From an uncultured Fidelibacterota bacterium (GTDB lineage Bacteria > Fidelibacterota > Marinisomatia > Marinisomatales > UBA1611): a stretch of DNA of 64,000 bases. Both the position numbers and the translations under genes were made by a program. The stretch is taken from assembly GCA_902562835.1 (NCBI GenBank), contig CACEUX010000001.1, positions 1 through 64,000 on the forward strand. The letters are read 5' to 3'. The notes below the pieces were generated by a model. The model did no database searches, was not told the origin of the DNA, and worked only from the letters and a program-made list of their open reading frames with translations. Shown here piece after piece: positions 7,001 through 25,302 of the stretch (position 1 is the stretch's first letter; the number at the start of each line of letters is the position of its first letter).

Positions 7001-9265
7001 TCACATGGCCCATGTAATCATACCGATTAGAAGGATAAACATTGGGGCCCCAATATTCATCCCGCCTTCCATTTCTGACCATTTTTTAGGCTTATCACCC
7101 ATTTTATTAAATCGTAACTCAACAGTTTCCAGTTTACCTGCTTCAGTATATACCGTCTTTGCTCCATACATTTCATTATTTTGAATGATTGAGTCATAGG
7201 CCACAAACTGCAACCCCTGTGCTGATGCTAGATGTGTGTAAACAGGGGAAAAACCACTGACTTGATGCCAGCCTGGCTCAACTTGGATTGGTCGTGCTAG
7301 GGGGGTCTCTCCTACATAGTTACCATCAATATAAATAGGGACCCCTGCCATATTAGCTTGGACCCGTATACCCCCATTATAATAGTACATAAAGCCAGGG
7401 TCCGATTGACGATCGACAATTTGTTTTGTCTGGTTATCCGGGTATGAATCTTTCCATCTATATTTACCATTGTCACTTGAAGAATAATCTAGAACTTCTT
7501 TTTGCGTTTGCAAAAAGGGGGGGACTTGGCTTTCTTCTTTAAAATCCCATTTTAAAGATTCTTTCATAGAGTCGCTTTGGTCAGAAAAAAAGCTCAACCA
7601 TGTATTACTTTCCTTTGTATTGGGTTGGAAAGGCATATCCTTATTTGACTTTGGTTTAAGAATTAAATCCTTATTTTTATATCTGGTCTTCAAACGTTTA
7701 TCCAAAACAGGTGGGTCGGTAAATTCTGGATCTAGGGGAAAAGATTCACGTAAGAATGAATCTTCTAGTGGAATAATAGTCATATTATTAATATTATTTC
7801 TTGATGGAACATGTTGCGTTTGAAGGTGCCGCGCATCATAATCATCTGGAATTAGATCTTCATCTGTAAACCAAGCTTCAATGATATTTGTGTCCGGCTC
7901 CTGCGTTGAAGGTTCATAGAGTTGAGAAAATGCTGATGTATCTTGCTTATAGTATAATTCTTTTGGAATATATTCTTTTTGTAGCTCATGAAAAGTATTC
8001 CTTTCAGATTCAGAAAAATCTTTTAATTCTAATATTTGTACAATATTAGTGTCTGATAATTGGGTCTCTGAAATAACATAACCTGATTGGTCAATGGCTT
8101 CCATTTTTATATTTTGGTTATTTGGTGGAATAAATTTTGTTTGAAAATCTGAAAAGTTATTGCTTAACGAATCCGCTATATCATTTGCCGTGGCAAGTTC
8201 AACGGGATTTAAATCACTATTAATATTTTTTTCTAACTCATCATTATTTTGAGATATGGCTTTCTCTCTTTTAAAAATATTAAAAATGTTTTTCCAATTT
8301 TTCTTTTTAGTCATTTCCAGTTTGGGGGATGATTCAACTAGCACAGGTTTTTGATTTTGAATTATCGTGTCTTTTTGTACTGGAAATTGTTTTTCAATAA
8401 CTGGTTTATTTGTTGTTTGACTGTATGTTGGGAAATCGCCACTGAACCACCCATCGTCTTTATTGGCACTTTCTTCTGATTGAGCCTTTATATCATTATT
8501 GGCAATAGATAAATCTTCAATTGTTTCAGTTAGGGTTTCTCCCGTTGATTTATTGATGTATACTTCTTTAATCAGGCTATCTGTAACACTGTTTTCACTG
8601 AAGTTTCGTATTGTAAAATTATCAAGCTCTCCATTTTTAATTGGACCTACTGATTTTTTCATTAGAATAGATTTTGCTAAAACCTCCTTCTCCCCTGGAT
8701 GATTAGTCGTGTATAACTTCCCATGATATTCAAAAATCGCATTTGGGCCTAATTCATTTCTTGCCTCATCAAAAGCATTTTTAAAATTCGTATTATATTT
8801 TGGAAACCCAGATGATTTTGCAACATTAAATACAGATGTCCCTTCTTCTTCAATATGCTGTTTTAAAGAAGCAACTTCTGATTTTTTCATTTCGGTATGA
8901 ATAAAAACTATTGTACTTGGAGAGGTTTTCGAATTGATAATATCATACCCCAAGATAGGCCTTCTTATAAGGATAGCAAGTTGAGTGGATTCGTCAAAGT
9001 CATCTATGACTATTTTTTTGACATCTCCAGAAAAGTTTTGATTAGCAACTTTGTTTTTAGGGGCCCGCACTCCTAATAAAGTTAAATAAACCCAACCCCT
9101 GTCTGATTTCCAACCAATAATATCATCATCATCTATTGCATCGGTATAGTCTAAGTTGACCATGATACCATTTTGTTTAATGCTATAGCTAACATCCTTT
9201 AGGGTTGACCCTATTAATGATGATGCAATAAGCACCATTGCACATTTTATAAATGTATAATTCAA
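7001..9265 (-). CDS. Secreted or membrane-anchored PEGA-domain protein with long low-complexity centre
   Basis: C-terminal 'GVPIYIDGNYVGETPLARPIQVEPGWHQVSGF' PEGA-like; N-terminal hydrophobic segment; hydrophobic C-terminal tail. Confidence 0.65.
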   Translation of the reverse strand: MNYTFIKCAMVLIASSLIGSTLKDVSYSIKQNGIMVNLDYTDAIDDDDIIGWKSDRGWVYLTLLGVRAPKNKVANQNFSGDVKKIVIDDFDESTQLAILIRRPILGYDIINSKTSPSTIVFIHTEMKKSEVASLKQHIEEEGTSVFNVAKSSGFPKYNTNFKNAFDEARNELGPNAIFEYHGKLYTTNHPGEKEVLAKSILMKKSVGPIKNGELDNFTIRNFSENSVTDSLIKEVYINKSTGETLTETIEDLSIANNDIKAQSEESANKDDGWFSGDFPTYSQTTNKPVIEKQFPVQKDTIIQNQKPVLVESSPKLEMTKKKNWKNIFNIFKREKAISQNNDELEKNINSDLNPVELATANDIADSLSNNFSDFQTKFIPPNNQNIKMEAIDQSGYVISETQLSDTNIVQILELKDFSESERNTFHELQKEYIPKELYYKQDTSAFSQLYEPSTQEPDTNIIEAWFTDEDLIPDDYDARHLQTQHVPSRNNINNMTIIPLEDSFLRESFPLDPEFTDPPVLDKRLKTRYKNKDLILKPKSNKDMPFQPNTKESNTWLSFFSDQSDSMKESLKWDFKEESQVPPFLQTQKEVLDYSSSDNGKYRWKDSYPDNQTKQIVDRQSDPGFMYYYNGGIRVQANMAGVPIYIDGNYVGETPLARPIQVEPGWHQVSGFSPVYTHLASAQGLQFVAYDSIIQNNEMYGAKTVYTEAGKLETVELRFNKMGDKPKKWSEMEGGMNIGAPMFILLIGMITWAM

Positions 9266-11333: not shown

Positions 11334-12155
11334 ATGAAAGTCATTGATCCAAAAAGTATGTTAATTGGTGCTTTAGCAATACTTCTCATATATACTACTT
11401 TAGGATTAAGACCGAAAACTGACGAATTAGGTCATTTAGTTGTGCGCAGTCTTACAATAGAGGATGACCGTGGCGTAATTATGGGTTATTTAGGTAATGG
11501 ATATATGCAAACCTATAATCAATACGGAGAGCCAACATTATTTATTGGTACAGGAAAAGATGGCGGTGGCTATATGAGGGCATATAATGGAAATGGGGAT
11601 GAGTCAGCATATGTTGGCACAGGCCGTATGGGTGGTGGATATATCCGGACCTATAACAATTCTCAGAAAGAAACCTCTTATTTAGGTACTGGATCAGATC
11701 ATGCTGGGCAGCTTCGAATATACAATAAAGATGGTGAAACATCATCCTATCTTGGAGAAGGATATTATCAGGCTTACAACCAATTTGGAGAAAGAACCCT
11801 TTTTCTAGGAACAGGAACAAGTGGTGGTGGTTATTTACGTACTTATAATTTTAATGGCCAAGAAACTGTTTATTTAGGCACTAGTGCAGATAGCTCTGGT
11901 CAATTACGTGTTTATGATGCGGCAGGAGAAACTGGCACATTCCTTGGTAGTGGTTATTTTAGAACATACAACCAGTTTGGTAAGATGACTACCTATCTAG
12001 GCAATGGCCGTGATGGAGGCGGTTATCTAAGAACAAATAATAAGTTTGAGACAGAGACTGCCTTTTTGGGAACAAATAATTCAAATGAGGGACTTATAAA
12101 TTTGAATGACAAGTTTGGTCAAAGCTTCTGGATACGCTTAAATAAGGGTGATTGA
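11334..12155 (+). CDS. N-terminally anchored tandem-repeat protein (about 23-aa Tyr/Gly-rich units), predicted beta-solenoid
   Basis: About ten degenerate repeats of the form GGYLRTYNxxGxETxYLGTGxxx after a single TM (MLIGALAILLIYTTLGL). Confidence 0.75.
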   Translation: MKVIDPKSMLIGALAILLIYTTLGLRPKTDELGHLVVRSLTIEDDRGVIMGYLGNGYMQTYNQYGEPTLFIGTGKDGGGYMRAYNGNGDESAYVGTGRMGGGYIRTYNNSQKETSYLGTGSDHAGQLRIYNKDGETSSYLGEGYYQAYNQFGERTLFLGTGTSGGGYLRTYNFNGQETVYLGTSADSSGQLRVYDAAGETGTFLGSGYFRTYNQFGKMTTYLGNGRDGGGYLRTNNKFETETAFLGTNNSNEGLINLNDKFGQSFWIRLNKGD

Positions 12156-12280
12156 TTTTTTATAAATTTTTTTGACTTTAATGTCTCTTAGTCTTAATAT
12201 TGGGAACAAAAGGTATCCGAGAGGGGGATAAATCATCCTCAAACCCTTTTTTTACATACTCAGATAATGAGGATTTGACC

Positions 12281-15200
12281 ATGCGGAAAATACTGGTTAG
12301 TTCGTTCATTCTATCGTCAATGGCTCTTGCCCAGAACGATGGATTAGTAAAGACATATTACCCTAGTGGGGCACTCGAAACAGAAGGCAATTACACCAAT
12401 GGTGTTCGGGATGGCCTCTGGACATTTTGGTATGAGGGTGAAGTATATGAAGACTATGGCGAAGATGGAGAACCCAACACGCAAGATGAAGGGGAAAACA
12501 ATGGCCAATGGGACTCCACAGAGACTGTTATCCGCGACTTAGATGGTGATACCTTTTACGACCCCCCTGAAAAACAAATGGAAGGCTCTTACGCATTAGG
12601 AAATAGAGAGGGTCTATGGACAAACTGGTATATCAATGGTATGCGTAAAGAAGAATCAAATTATCTTTCTGGAAAACTCAATGGTACCATAATTCGATGG
12701 CATGAGAACGGCAACAAATCTGAAGAAGGCGTGTATGAAACTGGCAAGCAAAATGGGACCTGGGTCTGGTATTACGAAACCGGGATTAAAAAAGAGCAAA
12801 CGCGATTCTTAGATGGACAACAAGACGGTTTATGGATCCAGTGGTTTAGCGATGGAGCAAAAAAATCAGAAAGAAAGTTTTCTAGTGGCGAGCGAGATAG
12901 TGTGTGGACTTCCTGGTTCGACAATGGAAACAAAAAATTTCAAGCTACTTATAAAAATGGAAAACTTAATGGTGAATGGACATCTTGGTATGAGGGTGGA
13001 ATAGTTAAAGAAAAAAGTGGTGCCTACTTAAATAATAAGTTAGATAATAAGTGGACATACTGGGAGGATGATGGAAGAAAAACAGAAGAAATAACATATA
13101 GTAATGGGATTAAAAACGGGTCATATGTATTTTGGAATTTTGATAATTATAAGACCCTTGCAGGGGAGTATTTAAATGGCGTAAAACATGGACTTTGGAC
13201 ACTATGGTATGATGATGGAATTATAAAAGCTGAGGAAAATTATGCCAATGGCGAAATGGATGGTCTGTGGAGCTGGTGGAGGCCTGACGGCGTAAAAGAT
13301 AAAGAAGGCAACTATAAAAACGGTGTTAAACATGGATTGTGGATATCTTGGAGTACAGCTGACCGTAAAAAAGGAGAAGAAACTTATGTAAATGGAATTC
13401 TTGATGGCTTAGTAACTGTTTGGCATGAGAATGGAAATAAAGACCGAGAGGGAATAATCCGTGGTAATGAACCAGAGGGAAGCTGGACATATTACTTCGC
13501 TGATGGAAAAGAAGATTTTAGATTTGATTATGGTTCTGGACTCGATCGAGTCCGTATTGCAGAATTAGAGGAGCGTGATGGTACTTTTTATAAGATAGGT
13601 AAACATAAACCCTATACTGGAATAGTTGTCGAATCAGGAGGTCTTAAAGATTATTTATTACTGGGTCGTTTTCAAGCAGGCCGGAGAGATGGACAATGGG
13701 TTCAATGGTATCGAAACGGACAAAAGGAAGTAGAAGGAATTTATTATAGAGGTAAAAAACATGGGGATTGGACTCTCTGGTACGAGGATGGCACCCTTAA
13801 GGAAAAGGGGGCATTCGATATGGGTGTTGCTGATGGAAATTATCAATATTGGTACCCTAATGGTCACCTACATATGGAGCAATCTTATAACAAAGGAGAA
13901 CCACAAGGAAGATGGACCTGGTGGTTCGAGCACGACCACAACCTAAATTTCACAGATGGTACATGGTCCTATAATGGAGTAACATACAAAGCAGAAAATG
14001 ATGAGGAACTATGGAACTGGTGGTGGTATCTCAATGACAATAAAGAAATGGAAGGGTATTATGTGGATGGCCGAAAAAATGGCGTCTGGACCTGGTGGTT
14101 TGATACTGGCGTGAAACAATCAGAGGGCAACTACCTTGATGATGAGCAGAATGGCTTATGGGAATATTTCGCACCTGATGGCTCGGTTGCAGAAGAAATA
14201 ACTTTTTCAGGTGGTAAAAGAGATGGACGGTCTACCTTATGGCTTACACCTGAAGAAAAACAAGAAGAGAAATTTTATAAAAATGGAAAACTTGATGGGC
14301 CAAGTACATTTTGGGAAAATGGATATCGCAGTACTATGACAACTTATAAATCGAATACCCCAGAAGGGCCATGGGTTATTTGGTATTCAAATCTTGACCA
14401 AATCAAGGAACAGGGTTTCCATCAAAACGGGGTCAGAGAAGGCCTTACAACCTATTACTATGATGATGGGAAAATGCAACGTGAAGGATTCTTCCAAGAA
14501 GGTCTTCCAGAGGGGGTTTGGACGTATTGGAATAAAGAGGGTGATAAAGATTTTGACTTTGATTTTGGGTCTGGATTAGAACATATCTCCTTAGAAGACC
14601 TAGTAGAAAGAGAGTCTATGTTTTATAAATTAGGCGAGGATAACCCCTTTACAGGAATTATTACCCAAGAAAACCCTGAGGCTGACTATCTGTTTTTAGG
14701 CAGAACCAAAGATGGTAAAAAAGATGGACAGTGGGTGAAGTGGTTTCCAAGTGGAAAAGATGTGCCTGAAATTATTTTAGTTGATGTGCCTAAGCCTGAG
14801 CCAACTATTCCGTGGAGTGGTGGCAAACAAGAGCAGGGTGGCTTCAAAGGCGGAGAGAAGCACGGAAAGTGGACCGAGTGGTATGACAATGAACACATTA
14901 AGTCTCATGGGACATATAACGAAGGCATCATGGACGGGGCCTGGACATTTTATCATCAAAATGGCGTGAAAGAAAAAGAGGGGTCGCTCATAAATGGAAA
15001 TGCAGATGGTTTATGGATATTTTGGAATGATGAAGCAAATAAGGTACAAGAGGGTACTTTCTCTAATGGTATAAAAGAGGGACAATGGACAGCCTGGTTT
15101 GAAGATGGTCGTCTTACAGAAGGATATTATGCTGGTGGTAAAAAAGATGCAACCTGGACAAGCTGGTGGGATTTTGATAGGGCAAGAAAAGAGATGCAAG

Positions 15201-15295
15201 GAGCATACAAAAAAGGTAAGATGGTTGATAAGTGGTTCTTTTATGATAAAAGCGGAAACCTTAAAGAGATAAGATACTTTTCTCCCGACTTCTAA
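12281..15295 (+). CDS. Giant secreted MORN-variant (YwqK/toxin-antitoxin-like repeat) protein
   Basis: Signal peptide MRKILVSSFILSSMALAQ starts at the ATG at 12281 (internal to the listed ORF); dozens of 'GxWxxWYxxGxxkxegxYxxGxxdG' repeats. Confidence 0.82.
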   Translation: MRKILVSSFILSSMALAQNDGLVKTYYPSGALETEGNYTNGVRDGLWTFWYEGEVYEDYGEDGEPNTQDEGENNGQWDSTETVIRDLDGDTFYDPPEKQMEGSYALGNREGLWTNWYINGMRKEESNYLSGKLNGTIIRWHENGNKSEEGVYETGKQNGTWVWYYETGIKKEQTRFLDGQQDGLWIQWFSDGAKKSERKFSSGERDSVWTSWFDNGNKKFQATYKNGKLNGEWTSWYEGGIVKEKSGAYLNNKLDNKWTYWEDDGRKTEEITYSNGIKNGSYVFWNFDNYKTLAGEYLNGVKHGLWTLWYDDGIIKAEENYANGEMDGLWSWWRPDGVKDKEGNYKNGVKHGLWISWSTADRKKGEETYVNGILDGLVTVWHENGNKDREGIIRGNEPEGSWTYYFADGKEDFRFDYGSGLDRVRIAELEERDGTFYKIGKHKPYTGIVVESGGLKDYLLLGRFQAGRRDGQWVQWYRNGQKEVEGIYYRGKKHGDWTLWYEDGTLKEKGAFDMGVADGNYQYWYPNGHLHMEQSYNKGEPQGRWTWWFEHDHNLNFTDGTWSYNGVTYKAENDEELWNWWWYLNDNKEMEGYYVDGRKNGVWTWWFDTGVKQSEGNYLDDEQNGLWEYFAPDGSVAEEITFSGGKRDGRSTLWLTPEEKQEEKFYKNGKLDGPSTFWENGYRSTMTTYKSNTPEGPWVIWYSNLDQIKEQGFHQNGVREGLTTYYYDDGKMQREGFFQEGLPEGVWTYWNKEGDKDFDFDFGSGLEHISLEDLVERESMFYKLGEDNPFTGIITQENPEADYLFLGRTKDGKKDGQWVKWFPSGKDVPEIILVDVPKPEPTIPWSGGKQEQGGFKGGEKHGKWTEWYDNEHIKSHGTYNEGIMDGAWTFYHQNGVKEKEGSLINGNADGLWIFWNDEANKVQEGTFSNGIKEGQWTAWFEDGRLTEGYYAGGKKDATWTSWWDFDRARKEMQGAYKKGKMVDKWFFYDKSGNLKEIRYFSPDF

Positions 15296-18122: not shown

Positions 18123-19058
18123 TTATTCTATCATTTCTCCACCAGAAAGAATATCCTCTAGGTTTATAGCGCCGTCTTTTTCCATCTGTTTCACAGCATC
18201 AACAAATAATTTCCTGGCATTATCAACCTCTCTTTTTGGTTGAGGTTTTGAAGCTAAATCTTCATTATACATTGCCTGTTTTTTCTGAGGAAGCATGTCT
18301 TTTAATTCATTTATCTTTTCTTCTTCCAAACCTTTAAAAGCAATTGGAAGGGTGTCTAGTTCAATTGAATTTAAAAGAGTTCGAACTTGATCTTCTGGGA
18401 ATTTTTCCATGATATCTTCAAATGTAAGAAATAAGACCTTTACAGCAGCGTAAAGCTCAGGATCCTCATTTTGAAGGGTCTGCATATATCTTTCTTGGTC
18501 ATTTGATGACATATCACTCAACATATCGGCTATTTCTTTAGCACCGCCTCTTGAAAAGTCAGCAGTGCGTGGAAGATAGGTTGATTTTTCTTTTAATCTT
18601 GCTCCAACCTCTATAATTCCCTCAAGCGGAATATCATCCAAAGAGCCTAATTCAATTAGGACCTGACCTTTTAATTCTGGTTCTAGTTTGTTTAACACGG
18701 TCATTTTTTTATCAGCTTCTAACTGAGCAAGTATCATGGCAATAACTGGAGGCTCTTCTTTATCAAGGAGAGCAAACATTTGCTCATCATTGAGATCTTC
18801 TAAAAAATCAAATGGCTGAATGGGACCATCTTCTTTCGTCTCATCCTGTTCTGCTAAGAACCCAAAATAGAATTCTTCCATCACACGTTTTTTTACAAGA
18901 AAGGATACCGTCCCCATTGATCTTACTGTAGAGCGTATTTTTCTAACTTCTGTTTTAGACAAACCTTTAATTAATGACATTGCTAAACTTTCTCCAACAA
19001 CAGAGAAAAGAATTGCAACTTTTTGAAGGCCTGAAAGCATATGATAATCGTTAATCAT
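18123..19058 (-). CDS. fliG-like: FliG-like motor switch protein (non-flagellar context)
   Basis: N-term 'LQKVAILFSVVGESLAMSLIKGLSKTEVRKI'; middle 'EEPPVIAMILAQLEADKKMTVLNKLEPELKGQVLIELGSL'; C-term 'GGAKEIADMLSDMSSNDQERYMQTLQNEDPELYAAVKVLFLTFEDIMEKFPEDQVRTLLNSIELDTLPIAFKGL' line up with the FliG N, M and C domains. Confidence 0.85.
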   Translation of the reverse strand: MINDYHMLSGLQKVAILFSVVGESLAMSLIKGLSKTEVRKIRSTVRSMGTVSFLVKKRVMEEFYFGFLAEQDETKEDGPIQPFDFLEDLNDEQMFALLDKEEPPVIAMILAQLEADKKMTVLNKLEPELKGQVLIELGSLDDIPLEGIIEVGARLKEKSTYLPRTADFSRGGAKEIADMLSDMSSNDQERYMQTLQNEDPELYAAVKVLFLTFEDIMEKFPEDQVRTLLNSIELDTLPIAFKGLEEEKINELKDMLPQKKQAMYNEDLASKPQPKREVDNARKLFVDAVKQMEKDGAINLEDILSGGEMIE

Positions 19059-19078: not shown

Positions 19079-20887
19079 TTATTCGCTACTTTCTTCTTCA
19101 TCTCCGCCGCTATCGCCACCTGATGACTCTTCGGGTTCGGGAGAGGGCGCTTCAGGAGCGGGTTGCTCAAGCCACTCTTTAACAATAGTAGATGTCCTTG
19201 TAGGCTGGCCAACACTCATAGAAACGACAGATTTTCGTATATCATCTATTTCACTTTTTAAAACATTTGGATCATCTTCAAGCGAATGCTGCTCGCCATC
19301 ATTTTCCTCTGATGATACGATATCTTCAGAAGTAGTTTCAGCAGCGACCTCTTCTTCTTTTACTTCTGGCTTCTCTGATGGCTCCTTTGGTTTTTGTTCC
19401 TCCTCTTTCTTTTCTTCCTTCTGCTCTTGTTGAGCAGCAGGTTTTTTCTTTTTTCTTCTCTTTCTGGGCCTAGGAGGAGGATAAGGAGGATAGGGCATTG
19501 GCGGATAGGCTTGCTGTGGCCCTGACCTACGTTGTAGAACCATCATTGCAATAAGCGCAGCTATCACGGCACCAAATGCAAATAACATAATTGTCTTAGT
19601 ATCCAATCCTGAAGAAGTTTCAGCTTCGAGAGCATCTAAGTCAGCTTGGACCGCATCTAGAGCTGCAATTTTTTCTGCTATTAACGAGTCCCTTTCTGCT
19701 TTCTCTTTTTCACGTTCTTGTAGTTCTGCTTCTATCTGAGCCTGCGCTTGATTTTGCGCTTCTAGAGAATCCTGCAACATTGCTTGGAGTAACATCTTTC
19801 TTAGGCTTTGCAATTCATTATCAAGCATTGCAAATCGAGTGGAGTCTAATGCGGTTGCTTTTGCTTTTTCTGTAGACTGGTTTACTGCTAGCATATCTTT
19901 TAAGGCATTAATTTCTGATTCCAGTTTAGAATTTCTAATCGAGTCTTTCCTGGATAGTTCTCTTTTCTCATATTCAGCAGCTTCTTGTAAACGCTTTTTA
20001 TCTAGTTCTTCAAGCTGGGTCTCTAAAAGGGCAAGGTCTTCTTCTCTTCGCACAGATATCTCTTCTTTATAATTTTCAATATCTTCTCTCCAGTTTGTGG
20101 ATTCAGATGCTCTTTTTTGTTCTAGAAGATCTATCTTTTCAGCAATATTCTTTAGCATTATTTGTTCTGCCGATCTTTGGTCTCTGCGCTCTTTAAAACT
20201 CGCTGTCATGATTGTTAGCTTATCACCACGGTCTCTATCAAATTTTGAAGCGGCCATTGTGAGCTGTCTAATATTTTCTATTAATTCGGGTGCTGCCCCC
20301 TCTTGAAGTATCAGAGATAGCTCCATACGCTTCACAATTGCTCGAGAAGGTCGCTTTCTTGAGAGAACCTTGTCTACAACATCTCTATCTTCTTCAGCAG
20401 AATCTTGTGATGGACTATCCATCGGGTCCATAGTTTTTGGAGAAATTGGATTGCTTTCAGTCAAGGGCCTTGAACTAGGTGTTTTTGGACGAACCACATC
20501 TACTTCAAAACCTGGAATAGGCAATCCAATAGAAAAACTTTCCTGCTCAGTTTGATTATCTTGAACCATTTTATTTTGAATCTTTACAAGAGCCTCTGCT
20601 GTTCTTTCTGCTGGAGAACTTTCTACCGGTTGGCTACGACCTGATTCTCGTGGTGCAAAAACTGTTATCTGCTCATTAACCTCATCAAGGATCTCCAAGT
20701 CAACATCTACATTGATCACATACTTGTGAGAGTCGATTACTTTTGAAAGAGCCTCTTTAACTCGATCTCTGATATCATTTTCGACCATTAGTTTTTGAGA
20801 GAGATATCCGCTCGCCTGCGCAGAAAGCAAGGCTACACCAATAACCACTCCAATAATGGCTTTAATATGTTTTTTACCCTTGTTCAT
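19079..20887 (-). CDS. fliF-like: FliF-like MS-ring-related protein with inserted coiled coil
   Basis: TM1; 'IRDRVKEALSKVIDSHKYVINVDVDLEI' and 'IVKRMELSLILQEGAAPELIENIRQLTMAASKFDRDRGDKLTIMTASF' resemble the FliF RBM3/YscJ_FliF_C region; coiled coil; TM2 'TIMLFAFGAVIAALIAMMVL'; tail 'IDDIRKSVVSMSVGQPTRTSTIVKEWLEQ' like the FliF FliG-binding C terminus. Confidence 0.72.
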   Translation of the reverse strand: MNKGKKHIKAIIGVVIGVALLSAQASGYLSQKLMVENDIRDRVKEALSKVIDSHKYVINVDVDLEILDEVNEQITVFAPRESGRSQPVESSPAERTAEALVKIQNKMVQDNQTEQESFSIGLPIPGFEVDVVRPKTPSSRPLTESNPISPKTMDPMDSPSQDSAEEDRDVVDKVLSRKRPSRAIVKRMELSLILQEGAAPELIENIRQLTMAASKFDRDRGDKLTIMTASFKERRDQRSAEQIMLKNIAEKIDLLEQKRASESTNWREDIENYKEEISVRREEDLALLETQLEELDKKRLQEAAEYEKRELSRKDSIRNSKLESEINALKDMLAVNQSTEKAKATALDSTRFAMLDNELQSLRKMLLQAMLQDSLEAQNQAQAQIEAELQEREKEKAERDSLIAEKIAALDAVQADLDALEAETSSGLDTKTIMLFAFGAVIAALIAMMVLQRRSGPQQAYPPMPYPPYPPPRPRKRRKKKKPAAQQEQKEEKKEEEQKPKEPSEKPEVKEEEVAAETTSEDIVSSEENDGEQHSLEDDPNVLKSEIDDIRKSVVSMSVGQPTRTSTIVKEWLEQPAPEAPSPEPEESSGGDSGGDEEESSE

Positions 20888-20931: not shown

Positions 20932-21876
20932 TTAATCATCCATATAACTTGTGGCAGAACGATCTCTAAGTTCCGCATCCTTAGCCGCCTTGCCTTTTAG
21001 GCCTTTCTTTTTACCATGGTGTGGTGGATTAATAAATGTAATCTGAATTCTTCTATTTGCTGATTTTTGCTTTTTTGTAGAGTTTAATGATAAAACTGTT
21101 GGCATAATTGTTTCATTACCTTGCTTGTCTACCCTAACTATTGGATCTTCCCATGTCAATGTTAACGGATTATACATCGGGTTTGCTTTTTTTACACTAT
21201 CAATGCCCCTTGGATACCAATCGCCATATCCTGCCGCTAAAAGCCTTGGAGCTGGAACACCTTTTTCAATCATATACCTTACCACGGTTGCACCACGAGC
21301 CGCAGAAAGCTCCCAGTTACTCTTGTAGAATTTTTGCCATTTTTTTGGCATTGGGTCACTATCGGAGTGCCCAGCTACTTCAACCTGAAATGGGCTGGCT
21401 TGAATCCTTGGAATAATTTCTGTATCTAATAATTCTTCAAGCTCTTTCTTCATATCTGCCTTCCCAGATGGAAAAGCAAAATCTCCTTTGATATTCACGA
21501 TGAGACCCTTTGCACTAGTTTCAATATCAATAGGCGGGTCTCCAGCGGGATTTTCTTTTTTCATTTCTTCGATGGCTTCTTTCATCTCTTTTTTCATAGC
21601 TGCAAGATTTTTTATTGGCTCAAACTCTCCTTCTTCTTCTGCTTTCCCCTGAGCCTTTATTTTACTACCTAATGATTTCCCCTGTGAGTTTGCCATCTCC
21701 TGCAGTTTTACAGGATCCATAGTAGATATAGCCGCTAGAAGCACAAAAAAAGCAAAGAGAAGCGTCATCATATCAGCGAAAGTTCCAAACCATCCTGGAA
21801 GTCCTTCTTCAACAGAATTTACTCCTTCTTCAAAGCCTTTATTCCAGGCCTTCTTTTCTCCAGCTGTCATTCCCAT
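20932..21876 (-). CDS. motB-like: MotB-like stator protein with OmpA-like peptidoglycan-binding domain
   Basis: 'LPGWFGTFADMMTLLFAFFVLLAAIS' (MotB TM with ion-binding Asp); 'VEVAGHSDSDPMP...LSAARGATVVRYMIEKGVPAPRLLAAGYGDWYP...ANRRIQITF'. Confidence 0.92.
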   Translation of the reverse strand: MGMTAGEKKAWNKGFEEGVNSVEEGLPGWFGTFADMMTLLFAFFVLLAAISTMDPVKLQEMANSQGKSLGSKIKAQGKAEEEGEFEPIKNLAAMKKEMKEAIEEMKKENPAGDPPIDIETSAKGLIVNIKGDFAFPSGKADMKKELEELLDTEIIPRIQASPFQVEVAGHSDSDPMPKKWQKFYKSNWELSAARGATVVRYMIEKGVPAPRLLAAGYGDWYPRGIDSVKKANPMYNPLTLTWEDPIVRVDKQGNETIMPTVLSLNSTKKQKSANRRIQITFINPPHHGKKKGLKGKAAKDAELRDRSATSYMDD

Positions 21877-21881
21877 TTAGA

Positions 21882-22667
21882 CTAATCTCGTTTCCACTCC
21901 GCAGGTGGGATAAAAGAATTTAGTTTTTCTCGTACAATAATTGGATGTTTTTTCTGGTGAATGAGACGTGCTGCTTCCACAAGTAAGTTTGCAGACATGG
22001 AGGTCTGTGTGGTTTTATTTCCCATCTTTTGGGCCATAGGTAAGAAGAATAGGTTTGCAGCAACAGCACCATAAAGAGTAGTTATCAACGCTGCAGCCAT
22101 ACCACCACCAAGGTTATCAGCACCACCCTCTCCGCCAAATCCAGCCAACATAAGGACAAGACCAATAAGGGTCCCAACCATACCCCAAGCAGGAGAGAGA
22201 TCACCCATCGCTTTTAGCATATCTGTTTGAACCTTCTCACGCTTTTCGCGATATTCAATTCTTGTTTCCAAAATATCTGTTACTTCATCTAAAGAGTACC
22301 CATCTACTACCATTTGTACCCCATCTTTAAAGAAATAGGTTTTTATTGTATCAACAGATTTTTCCAAATCAGCTGGCCCTTTTCTTGCATACTCAGCAAC
22401 ATCACAAGCCTCATCTACCAATGGACCCATTTTATCATCTGCTGGTTTCAGTACAGCACCAATCGCCTTACCAAGCGCAGCTACATGATACATAGGAAAA
22501 GCTACCATGACTGAAGCTATCATTCCTCCGATTACAATGCCAAAACTTGGGATAGAAACAAAATTTCCAAAGCCACCTGCTGCACCCTCAACAAATAACG
22601 CATAGGCAATACTGCCTATCATAAAGACCATTCCTAAAACAACACCTATAATGAGAGCAATATCCAT
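21882..22667 (-). CDS. motA-like: MotA/PomA-like stator protein
   Basis: 'PSFGIVIGGMIASVMVAFPMYH', cytoplasmic loop 'AEYARKGPADLEKSVD', 'PAWGMVGTLIGLVLMLAGFGG', 'MAAALITTLYGAVAANLFFLPMAQKM'. Confidence 0.94.
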   Translation of the reverse strand: MDIALIIGVVLGMVFMIGSIAYALFVEGAAGGFGNFVSIPSFGIVIGGMIASVMVAFPMYHVAALGKAIGAVLKPADDKMGPLVDEACDVAEYARKGPADLEKSVDTIKTYFFKDGVQMVVDGYSLDEVTDILETRIEYREKREKVQTDMLKAMGDLSPAWGMVGTLIGLVLMLAGFGGEGGADNLGGGMAAALITTLYGAVAANLFFLPMAQKMGNKTTQTSMSANLLVEAARLIHQKKHPIIVREKLNSFIPPAEWKRD

Positions 22668-22671
22668 AAGG

Positions 22672-24087
22672 TCACTCCTCCATAATGCTTGTAGATTTTA
22701 ATTTATTTTCGTTCAGAGCTTTCAGAATATTACGAACATCTGTATACTCTGGATCGAGGCGCAACGCCAGATTCCAGTTTATAGTAGCTCTCTGTACATC
22801 TCCTAATTTATAGTAGATTGACCCTCTTCTGGCATATGCTAATGCTAAATCAGGATTTAATTCTAAGGCGAGGTCTACCTCTTTTAAGGCCTCTCTATAG
22901 TCCCCAGCATAGAAGAACCTTAATGATCGAGATAAGAATCTCATCGCTTCATTCATGTTTTTTTCAGAAACATTAGTTTCCAATTTAAGGGATGTTAATG
23001 AATCAGATAAAAACTTACTATTTTGTTCCATTGCATTAAGACGAACAAGTAGGTTCCTCATTTCATTATTCATTAGGGCCATAGAATCCCTAAGTGTTGA
23101 TACTGCTACATTTGCCATAGCAACAGTGGAATCTCTATGTATTGGTATGCTATCATCAAATCTTTTATTAATACCACCACTAGGCCCATATATATTGGTA
23201 GGACTAGAAGGTCCACTTTGAACTCGCTGCCTAGGGTCTCTAGGTACAGCCATATCAAGTCCCAAGGTAAAGCCTGGATGGCCAGACCAATAGCGATTGC
23301 CCCATTCTGGTAATTTTTCCATGTGGGTGAACCCTAGGTTCAGGCGGTAATCCGAGGTAAGGGGGATGCGGAGTCCCACATTGACACCTGTCCCGTCGAA
23401 TTCACCCACAATATCCATTCCACCCCGCCTTGCAAAGTACGGGGTTTTCATTAAAAAGCCTACAAATACGCCCGCATTATTTTCAGTGGAGTCAGTAATG
23501 ACAGCTCCATTAGCATCTAATAATGCTGGAAGAGTATCTGCAGCAACTGGTGCTAATCCACCAGTTCCAAAACCAAAATATGTATCAAACTTATACTCGC
23601 CCAAGTCTTTTTGACTTGATAATACAACAAAGGCAGAAAGAAGAGAGGTGTTCAAGCTAAGCATTTCTTCTGAGGTCTGTTCGCTTTGGAAAACCACATC
23701 TTGAAGACCGACTGAAACAGAGATATCATTATACTTATAAACTCGCTGTTGAAAATGAAAACCAAATTCAGCAGGAGCGTCATACTGAGACTCTTCTAGG
23801 TTACTTAACCTTGTTGTGTCTCCAGGTATAACAGCGGAAAAACCAGCACTAAACCCTTTACCAACCTCCATTTCAAAGAACGCACCTTTTGCAGTATTAA
23901 AAGGATTAAGGTTGTGATATTCAACCGATACTCCTGTTCTAAATAGATATGGGGTCTTTTTATTGCTTGATGTAGGAATGCGCATCATCAATCCTGGGCG
24001 TGTATATGCAACTCGGGTTCCTCCTATTAATAAACAAGAAAGAACCAGGGCTGAAATAATAGCAATGTGTCTGCGATTAAAATCCAT
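22672..24087 (-). CDS. Predicted outer-membrane beta-barrel protein with C-terminal TPR domain
   Basis: Hydrophobic N terminus, alternating beta-strand-rich first ~240 residues, then 'FYAGDYREALKEVDLALELNPDLALAYARRGSIYYKLGDVQRATINWNLALRLDPEY' TPRs; 4-nt gap to motA-like. Confidence 0.68.
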   Translation of the reverse strand: MDFNRRHIAIISALVLSCLLIGGTRVAYTRPGLMMRIPTSSNKKTPYLFRTGVSVEYHNLNPFNTAKGAFFEMEVGKGFSAGFSAVIPGDTTRLSNLEESQYDAPAEFGFHFQQRVYKYNDISVSVGLQDVVFQSEQTSEEMLSLNTSLLSAFVVLSSQKDLGEYKFDTYFGFGTGGLAPVAADTLPALLDANGAVITDSTENNAGVFVGFLMKTPYFARRGGMDIVGEFDGTGVNVGLRIPLTSDYRLNLGFTHMEKLPEWGNRYWSGHPGFTLGLDMAVPRDPRQRVQSGPSSPTNIYGPSGGINKRFDDSIPIHRDSTVAMANVAVSTLRDSMALMNNEMRNLLVRLNAMEQNSKFLSDSLTSLKLETNVSEKNMNEAMRFLSRSLRFFYAGDYREALKEVDLALELNPDLALAYARRGSIYYKLGDVQRATINWNLALRLDPEYTDVRNILKALNENKLKSTSIMEE

Positions 24088-24129: not shown

Positions 24130-25302
24130 TTATTGATATTCTTCCCAATCTATTACATAAGAATATCCAATGAACGCTCCAAAATCCTGGGGAACATAAA
24201 GATCAAATTTACCTACGGCTCCAGGAAGAAGGCTCGCATCTGAAACAATCCCTGTGTCAAAAGTGTTATATGAACCCTTAACAAAAGTGGTCAGAGTTTT
24301 TGTTTCACCACTCCAGTTCTTCCTAAAAACAAAGTCTACTTTTACAAAATCTGCTCTACGTCCACCTATGTTTTTAATTTCACCATCAAATATTATGTTT
24401 CCCTGCCCATCCTTTTTTTCTGAAATATTACCAACCAAGACACAATTGCCAGAAAATTTTGCGCTAGCATTGCTTGCAGAGTTATTTGAAGATGTATATC
24501 GTGGTTGTGCTAGCTTAGGCATCGGTGGCGGAGTATAGCTTTCGCGTATCTGCTCTGGTACATACTCTTGCGTGTCTTCTGTAATGACATTATCGACAAT
24601 TCGCACAACCTGCGCCCTATCGACAATTAAATATCCAACCAGGGTCTCTACTTTGAGCGATTTATCATCCTGGTAAATAATCTTACCAAAAACAGTACTA
24701 CCGTTTTTTAGAATTATTTCTTTTGAATAAATAGTAAGAGGGTTAACCCACATCTTACTTAAAGCCTTTAAATCATCCATTTCCTGAGAAAGGTGTTTGA
24801 ATTCTGCAGAAAGCTTTTTTATTTCAAAGTTTAGCTCATTCAGAATGAAATCCTTACTTGGACTCCCCATTGCCTCCATGGTTTGTGGAACCGTCACTGA
24901 GATGCGCTCTGGCTGTCCGCTTGGCGCTGCCTTAACCTGAGATTCCGCAACTGGGGCACTAGGTTTTTTAGTTGAGAGCGCTATGTCTCCTATGTTTTCT
25001 TTTCCAGTTAGTGTGACAATTTTTTCTGCTGATCCCAAATTATCATGTGATGCCTGCAGCACATAATCACCCTCTTCTAACTTTTTGAATTTAAACTTCC
25101 CATTGCCGCCCGTTTTTTCTTCATCAACAACTTCGCCCCCTGAAAGCAATGTGACTATGGCCTTTTTAACCTTCTTGCCATCTGAATCAACTATCCTTCC
25201 TGATAGGGTGAGTTTTCCTTTAGCATATAGAGTGGACCCTATAAGCGTAAGGACGACTGTAGCGAGCAGTGCTCGCTTTTGTAGGCTATTAATTAGTGTC
25301 AT
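24130..25302 (-). CDS. Secreted protein with carboxypeptidase-regulatory-like N domain and FxLYD-like C domain
   Basis: 'LSGRIVDSDGKKVKKAIVTLLSGGEVVDEEKTGGNGKFKFKKLEEGDYVL'; 'GSTVFGKIIYQDDKSLKVETLVGYLIVDRAQVVRI'; 'GEIKNIGGRRADFVKVDFVFR...'. Confidence 0.65.
   Translation of the reverse strand: MTLINSLQKRALLATVVLTLIGSTLYAKGKLTLSGRIVDSDGKKVKKAIVTLLSGGEVVDEEKTGGNGKFKFKKLEEGDYVLQASHDNLGSAEKIVTLTGKENIGDIALSTKKPSAPVAESQVKAAPSGQPERISVTVPQTMEAMGSPSKDFILNELNFEIKKLSAEFKHLSQEMDDLKALSKMWVNPLTIYSKEIILKNGSTVFGKIIYQDDKSLKVETLVGYLIVDRAQVVRIVDNVITEDTQEYVPEQIRESYTPPPMPKLAQPRYTSSNNSASNASAKFSGNCVLVGNISEKKDGQGNIIFDGEIKNIGGRRADFVKVDFVFRKNWSGETKTLTTFVKGSYNTFDTGIVSDASLLPGAVGKFDLYVPQDFGAFIGYSYVIDWEEYQ

Follow-up and report, generated by a model that had tools for sequence, protein, structure and literature searches.

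A FliF relative reduced to RBM3, encoded together with FliG, MotA and MotB homologues and an outer-membrane TPR protein, suggests a gate-less envelope motor in Candidatus Marinimicrobia

The window, i.e., the whole stretch of 64,000 nucleotides analyzed here (positions 1 to 64,000 of contig CACEUX010000001.1, assembly GCA_902562835.1), carries on its minus strand a gene cluster that includes a FliF relative, referred to as mini-FliF (19079..20887, 602 aa, ATG start). Upstream of mini-FliF lie, in strand order, CPREG (24130..25302), an exported protein which was assigned by its CarboxypepD_reg domain and by synteny as the conserved first gene of the cluster; TPR_OM (22672..24087, 471 aa), which consists of an outer-membrane barrel, a long helix, and a C-terminal TPR; a MotA-type stator subunit (21882..22667); and a MotB-type stator subunit with a plug and an OmpA peptidoglycan-binding domain (20932..21876), while mini-FliG (18123..19058) is located downstream. 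The same order is present in 24 of 24 neighborhoods from 19 family-level groups of Ca. Marinimicrobia, with CPREG falling past the contig end in two of these neighborhoods. Most relatives also possess one or two extra genes between CPREG and TPR_OM, and those tested encode coiled-coil plus TPR proteins. Two of them were scanned against NCBIfam and fell near CpoB/YbgF (TIGR02795, E = 1e-21 and 3e-19), and lipoprotein-type signal peptides were recognized by eye on several, while no CpoB-like gene is present in the window's own operon. Elsewhere in the window, a 1031-aa exported-looking protein of MORN_2 repeats (12200-15295) adjoins another repeat protein (11334-12155), and a 754-aa PEGA-domain protein (7001-9265) is flanked by a glutamate-cysteine ligase and a methyltransferase-like gene.

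The Pfam domain YscJ_FliF_C (PF08345) was matched over its full length on residues 47-231 of mini-FliF (all profile positions, 1 to 147; 26.9 bits, with the curated cut-off at 23.8), as well as in 60 of 61 homologues. The first half of this RBM3 (20687..20806, residues 28-67) is modeled as a helix and a strand and contains the conserved motif YLaQKlmlEN..R.Ri..AlsKi, while the second half (20183..20353, residues 179-235) contains the motif FDR.RGD. They are separated by a collar-like insertion with a conserved PGF motif (20354..20686, residues 68-178), which is 54 to 181 residues long across the family. Searching the single protein against the PDB with phmmer gave low-complexity matches only, and a family profile was required; the profile built from the 61 homologues matched solved FliF chains in RBM3 only (6scn residues 241-439, E = 4e-8), and a full-length profile comparison gave a strong match for the first half of RBM3 (E = 2.7e-7) and a weak one for the tail. 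Modeled with AlphaFold2, residues 28-252 reached a mean pLDDT of 72.9, with the RBM3 core blocks at about 86-95 and the collar insertion mostly at 40-66. The model begins with a helix, a strand, and a collar strand, continues with a long insertion of poor order and another collar strand, and ends with a strand, a helix, and a strand. Foldseek against the PDB returned 17 matches at E ≤ 0.001, all of which were FliF MS-ring/RBM3 chains (best 8z5v_A, E = 2.5e-7, probability 1.00), although low confidence in the collar arms kept the TM-scores modest (TMt no higher than 0.58). The sporulation ring protein SpoIIIAG, which is likewise RBM3-like without RBM1/RBM2, was matched at E = 0.2 only (5wc3) and, unlike mini-FliF, has no FliG or stator partner. 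No match to YscJ_FliF (PF01514), which would indicate RBM1/RBM2, was found in mini-FliF or elsewhere in the window's genome, and RBM3 starts only a few residues past the N-terminal hydrophobic segment. The original prediction, which described a FliF-like protein with a split RBM3 and without RBM1/RBM2, was thus borne out by profiles and by the structural comparison alike, confirming that the window encodes a FliF relative keeping only RBM3. According to a previous study, RBM3 of FliF alone assembles into rings in vitro (PMC8786727). As a separate observation, mini-FliFs of groups f15 and f16 (L128 7816-9177, L130 7929-9281, and L127 7050-8447) have lost the RGD motif and carry a conserved Cys pair in the second half of RBM3 (DC.DCI or QCSDCI), while the rest of their operon is intact.

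The prediction had also assigned mini-FliF the topology of FliF, which is probably not exact. The N-terminal hydrophobic segment (20816..20887, residues 1-24), regarded as TM1, is probably a cleavable Sec signal peptide, as inferred from its sequence pattern. The hydrophobic stretch closes with a small residue and then Q/E, shortly before the YLaQK motif, in 58 of 61 homologues. The phylum's true FliFs do not show this pattern, and their polar N-terminus ahead of TM1 is longer. Signal-peptidase sites in this part of the bacterial tree look the same, so the mature protein may possess a single transmembrane segment. The long coil expected before TM2 is matched in the window's protein by a stretch of about 200 residues between RBM3 and TM2 (19535..19591, residues ~433-451, hydropathy maximum), most of it charged, periplasmic, and probably coiled-coil judging by composition (19610..20182, residues ~236-426). 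However, this stretch varies from 43 to 210 residues across the phylum, with no more than 43-47 in group f18, which makes the long coil a lineage-specific elaboration and not a constant of the family. TM2 is followed by a Pro/Lys-rich cytoplasmic linker with the conserved motif ppwmy.pPr (19268..19534, residues 452-540) and by the C-terminal tail (19157..19267, residues ~541-577), which had been likened to the FliF helices that bind FliG. In a separate tail-only alignment, 31 columns of this tail were aligned with those of the phylum's flagellar FliFs (hhalign probability 92), and the score of 32.2 was well above the maximum of 18.9 among 100 column-shuffled controls, supporting, at the level of sequence profiles, a tail of the FliG-binding type. 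In known structures, the FliF tail co-folds with FliG_N (PMC6079021).

Mini-FliG possesses the N, middle, and C domains of FliG, all above the Pfam cut-off. The EHPQ motif, through which FliG binds FliM, is EEPP in the window's mini-FliG and has been lost in 58 of 58 mini-FliGs, while it is kept in nine flagellar FliGs of the phylum; this loss fits the absence of FliM/FliN. Among the torque residues, the position of K264 is Lys and that of R281 is Lys or Arg in all 58 sequences, while D288/D289 and R297 are not conserved, suggesting that the rotor interface differs from that of E. coli. Phylogenetic trees divided mini-FliG and flagellar FliG, E. coli included, into two clans with a support of 100/100, but E. 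coli sits on a long branch in them and the phylum's flagellar rows consist of fragments. On these trees, then, the module seems not to derive from the phylum's own flagellar fliG; the root could not be placed, and so neither could the order of appearance.

In the stator, the channel Asp of MotB is present in 61 of 61 sequences, and MotA retains the equivalent of E98 as well as Pro173 and Pro222 in all 61 and an Arg seven residues before the Glu in 60. Both proteins are closest to flagellar models, namely MotP/PomA and MotB, and not to TolQ/TolR; TolQ was reached at E = 0.04 only. In genome G017, a further MotA/ExbB-type gene (L047, 19147-19968) was observed downstream of the module, at a distance of about 7 kb.

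TPR_OM was modeled by AlphaFold2 with about 12 strands, a 75-residue helix, and a TPR at pLDDT 92-96, and Foldseek matched it to 12-strand outer-membrane barrels (NanC, OMPLA) and to TPR structures. Within the protein, conservation is highest in the TPR, which would suit a docking surface. All 103 genomes that carry mini-FliF possess TPR_OM, as do three others of the 149 phylum genomes; TPR_OM is associated with mini-FliF (p = 3e-34) and independent of flagellar genes (p = 0.67; Fisher tests treating species as independent). Such p-values are inflated by shared ancestry, whereas the one-to-one pattern seen across the phylum stands without them. In genome G012, TPR_OM is split into two overlapping frames (L038, 12556-14264), which might be a frameshift or an assembly error.

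Mini-FliF was found in 103 of 149 Marinimicrobia genomes; a 104th match in the phylum search was a flagellar FliF and was left out. Among the 149 genomes, FlhA was above cut-off in 33, YscJ_FliF in 33, and FliM/N in 32. At least one of these markers occurs in 27 of the mini-FliF genomes, and none was detected in the other 76, namely the window's genome (78% complete) and 75 more, which agrees with the earlier suggestion of a ring that does not house a type III secretion gate. As well, FlhA was not detected in the window's family, f1. Most genomes are incomplete, so that single absences are weak evidence, but the pattern over 76 genomes is not; moreover, G017, assembled as a single contig of 2.79 Mb, possesses the module and none of the three markers. 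In the 27 genomes that carry both, the two systems occupy separate loci where these could be located; for instance, on the single contig of G060, a FlhA lies at 1.02 Mb, the module at 2.42 Mb, and the flagellar FliF at 2.94 Mb. Mini-FliF was not found in any of the 11 small-genome members (0.8-1.0 Mb) of family f2, as expected of a dispensable motility device, though other dispensable functions would fit as well. A phylum-specific search pattern retrieved 40 public loci annotated as Candidatus Marinimicrobia / Neomarinimicrobiota or plainly as "bacterium"; several of the latter are records of phylum genomes already counted, and such a pattern says little about other phyla. A second set of TPR_OM (itself partial), MotA, MotB, mini-FliF, and mini-FliG was noticed on another contig (L131, G140:C52) of a genome from the window's genus, in which the second mini-FliF is 63% identical to that of the window and could be a paralogue or contamination.

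We read the homologies and gene order observed here, together with the retained motor residues, the missing flagellar markers, and the co-inheritance, as an operon for an ion-driven, flagellar-type FliG/RBM3 rotor, coupled to the outer membrane and lacking export gate, switch, and filament, which would build no flagellum (a probability of roughly 60%). Since RBM3 and the FliG-binding tail are conserved beside a complete stator, a MotAB-driven FliG ring on an RBM3 ring is the simplest reading. In the proposed machine, peptidoglycan-anchored MotA/MotB would push a mini-FliG ring that is attached to mini-FliF through the cytoplasmic tails of the latter. The RBM3 domains of mini-FliF would form a ring in the periplasm, which would lack the floor that RBM1/RBM2 provide for an export gate. 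A switch complex would be missing too, given the absence of FliM/FliN, and the motor is accordingly expected to turn one way. Rotation or force would cross the periplasm via the RBM3 ring, plus the coil where present, and would reach the conserved TPR at the end of the long TPR_OM helix hanging from the outer-membrane barrel, with CPREG and, in relatives, the CpoB-like TPR proteins as putative periplasmic links. TPR_OM, which is strictly co-inherited with mini-FliF, would be the natural output of the motor. Ring formation, rotation, the FliF-FliG contact, the TPR contacts, and the direction of force are all inferred, and no experiment supports them.

Among the closest known systems is the flagellar motor, with which the module shares RBM3 with a collar insertion, the FliG-binding tail, a three-domain FliG, the fliF-fliG gene order, and MotAB with the channel Asp and the torque-loop charges. 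The flagellar MS ring comprises about 33-34 FliF subunits. Unlike the flagellar motor, the module lacks RBM1/RBM2, the export gate, FliM/FliN, and EHPQ, has a probable signal peptide in place of TM1 and a TPR_OM partner, and often resides in genomes without flagellar genes. GldL/GldM of Bacteroidota, which serve type IX secretion and gliding, are similarly an ion-driven inner-membrane motor tied to outer-membrane parts, and a SprA homologue is found in the genomes studied here; however, GldLM is not known to have a FliG/FliF rotor. In Myxococcus, the Glt parts of the gliding machinery include periplasmic TPR and outer-membrane barrel proteins, a combination that recalls the module, whose TPR similarity to GltC/GltE is weak only; Agl/Glt is not known to include FliG or an RBM3 ring. 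The accompanying AglRQS is a MotAB-like channel (PMC9389320).

As all core genes are flagellar homologues, the operon could be a decayed flagellar operon or contribute a rotor component to the flagellum of the organism itself, but this is very improbable given the open frames and synteny conserved across the 19 family groups, the two FliG clans, the separate loci in genomes that carry both systems, and the outer-membrane partner retained in every mini-FliF genome. An operon left behind by flagellar loss was rejected on the FliG tree and the co-occurrence. A Tol-Pal-type role, in which MotAB-FliG-RBM3 would pull outer-membrane and CpoB-like proteins to tether or constrict the envelope and keep it together, is unlikely but stronger: the relatives' CpoB/YbgF-like TPR proteins, the outer-membrane barrel, and the peptidoglycan link through MotB all point that way. 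Nevertheless, the stator is of MotP/PomA and not TolQ type, Tol-Pal leaves no room for a FliG rotor, a CpoB-like gene is missing from the operon of the window, and absence from whole lineages, including the 11 f2 genomes, would be odd for a housekeeping envelope function.

Doubtful, and ranked below the Tol-Pal-type role, is a motor for the type IX secretion translocon SprA in place of GldL/GldM. SprA was matched in 146 of 149 phylum genomes and GldM in none of the 149 (a search without a positive control), and the CpoB-like proteins are weakly similar to PorW/SprE (E = 4e-7). This use is rated lower because SprA persists where the module is absent, namely in nearly all of the 46 genomes without detected mini-FliF, including every f2 genome; in addition, SprA is not encoded in the operon. 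The occurrence of SprA in so many Marinimicrobia, streamlined genomes included, is itself of note, since several papers call the type IX system confined to Bacteroidota. A Zorya defense system was also considered and rejected, as only the similarity of MotB to ZorB was found and ZorA was not matched.

Returning to the gate-less rotor, its most likely task, though still speculative and held at clearly less than even odds, may be the movement of surface components in a gliding-type motility. This is favored because f2 members lose the module and keep SprA, and because other ion-driven, outer-membrane-coupled motors (GldLM, Agl) drive gliding (PMC9389320); it rests only on this analogy and loss pattern, and the operon encodes neither an adhesin nor a filament. 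A role in secretion, or one resembling that of Tol-Pal, is still possible.

The main text of a survey published in 2025, which covers MotAB together with its non-flagellar relatives, mentions neither FliF nor Marinimicrobia (PMC12505986), and our literature search found no account of such a module, although its coverage was partial and an earlier description elsewhere is not excluded. More tentatively than the gliding role, FliG, an RBM3 ring, and MotAB might constitute a separate class of envelope-spanning motor that has been present since early in Marinimicrobia, is used for filament-free surface movement, and possibly reflects a rotor-stator pair that predates type III export or stands apart from it. 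Assembly of the flagellar rotor goes together with that of the export gate, and whether a rotor-stator half can exist by itself bears on the origin of the flagellum; a phylum-wide, apparently vertically inherited FliG-FliF-MotAB without gate, switch, or filament makes this question testable, and gives structural studies a small ring, perhaps consisting of RBM3 alone, to work on. The findings suggest an undescribed rotary machine spanning the cell envelope in most of the Marinimicrobia sampled. This phylum has become known chiefly through environmental genomes, and the findings thereby provide an abundant marine group with almost no cell biology with a candidate motility or envelope motor.
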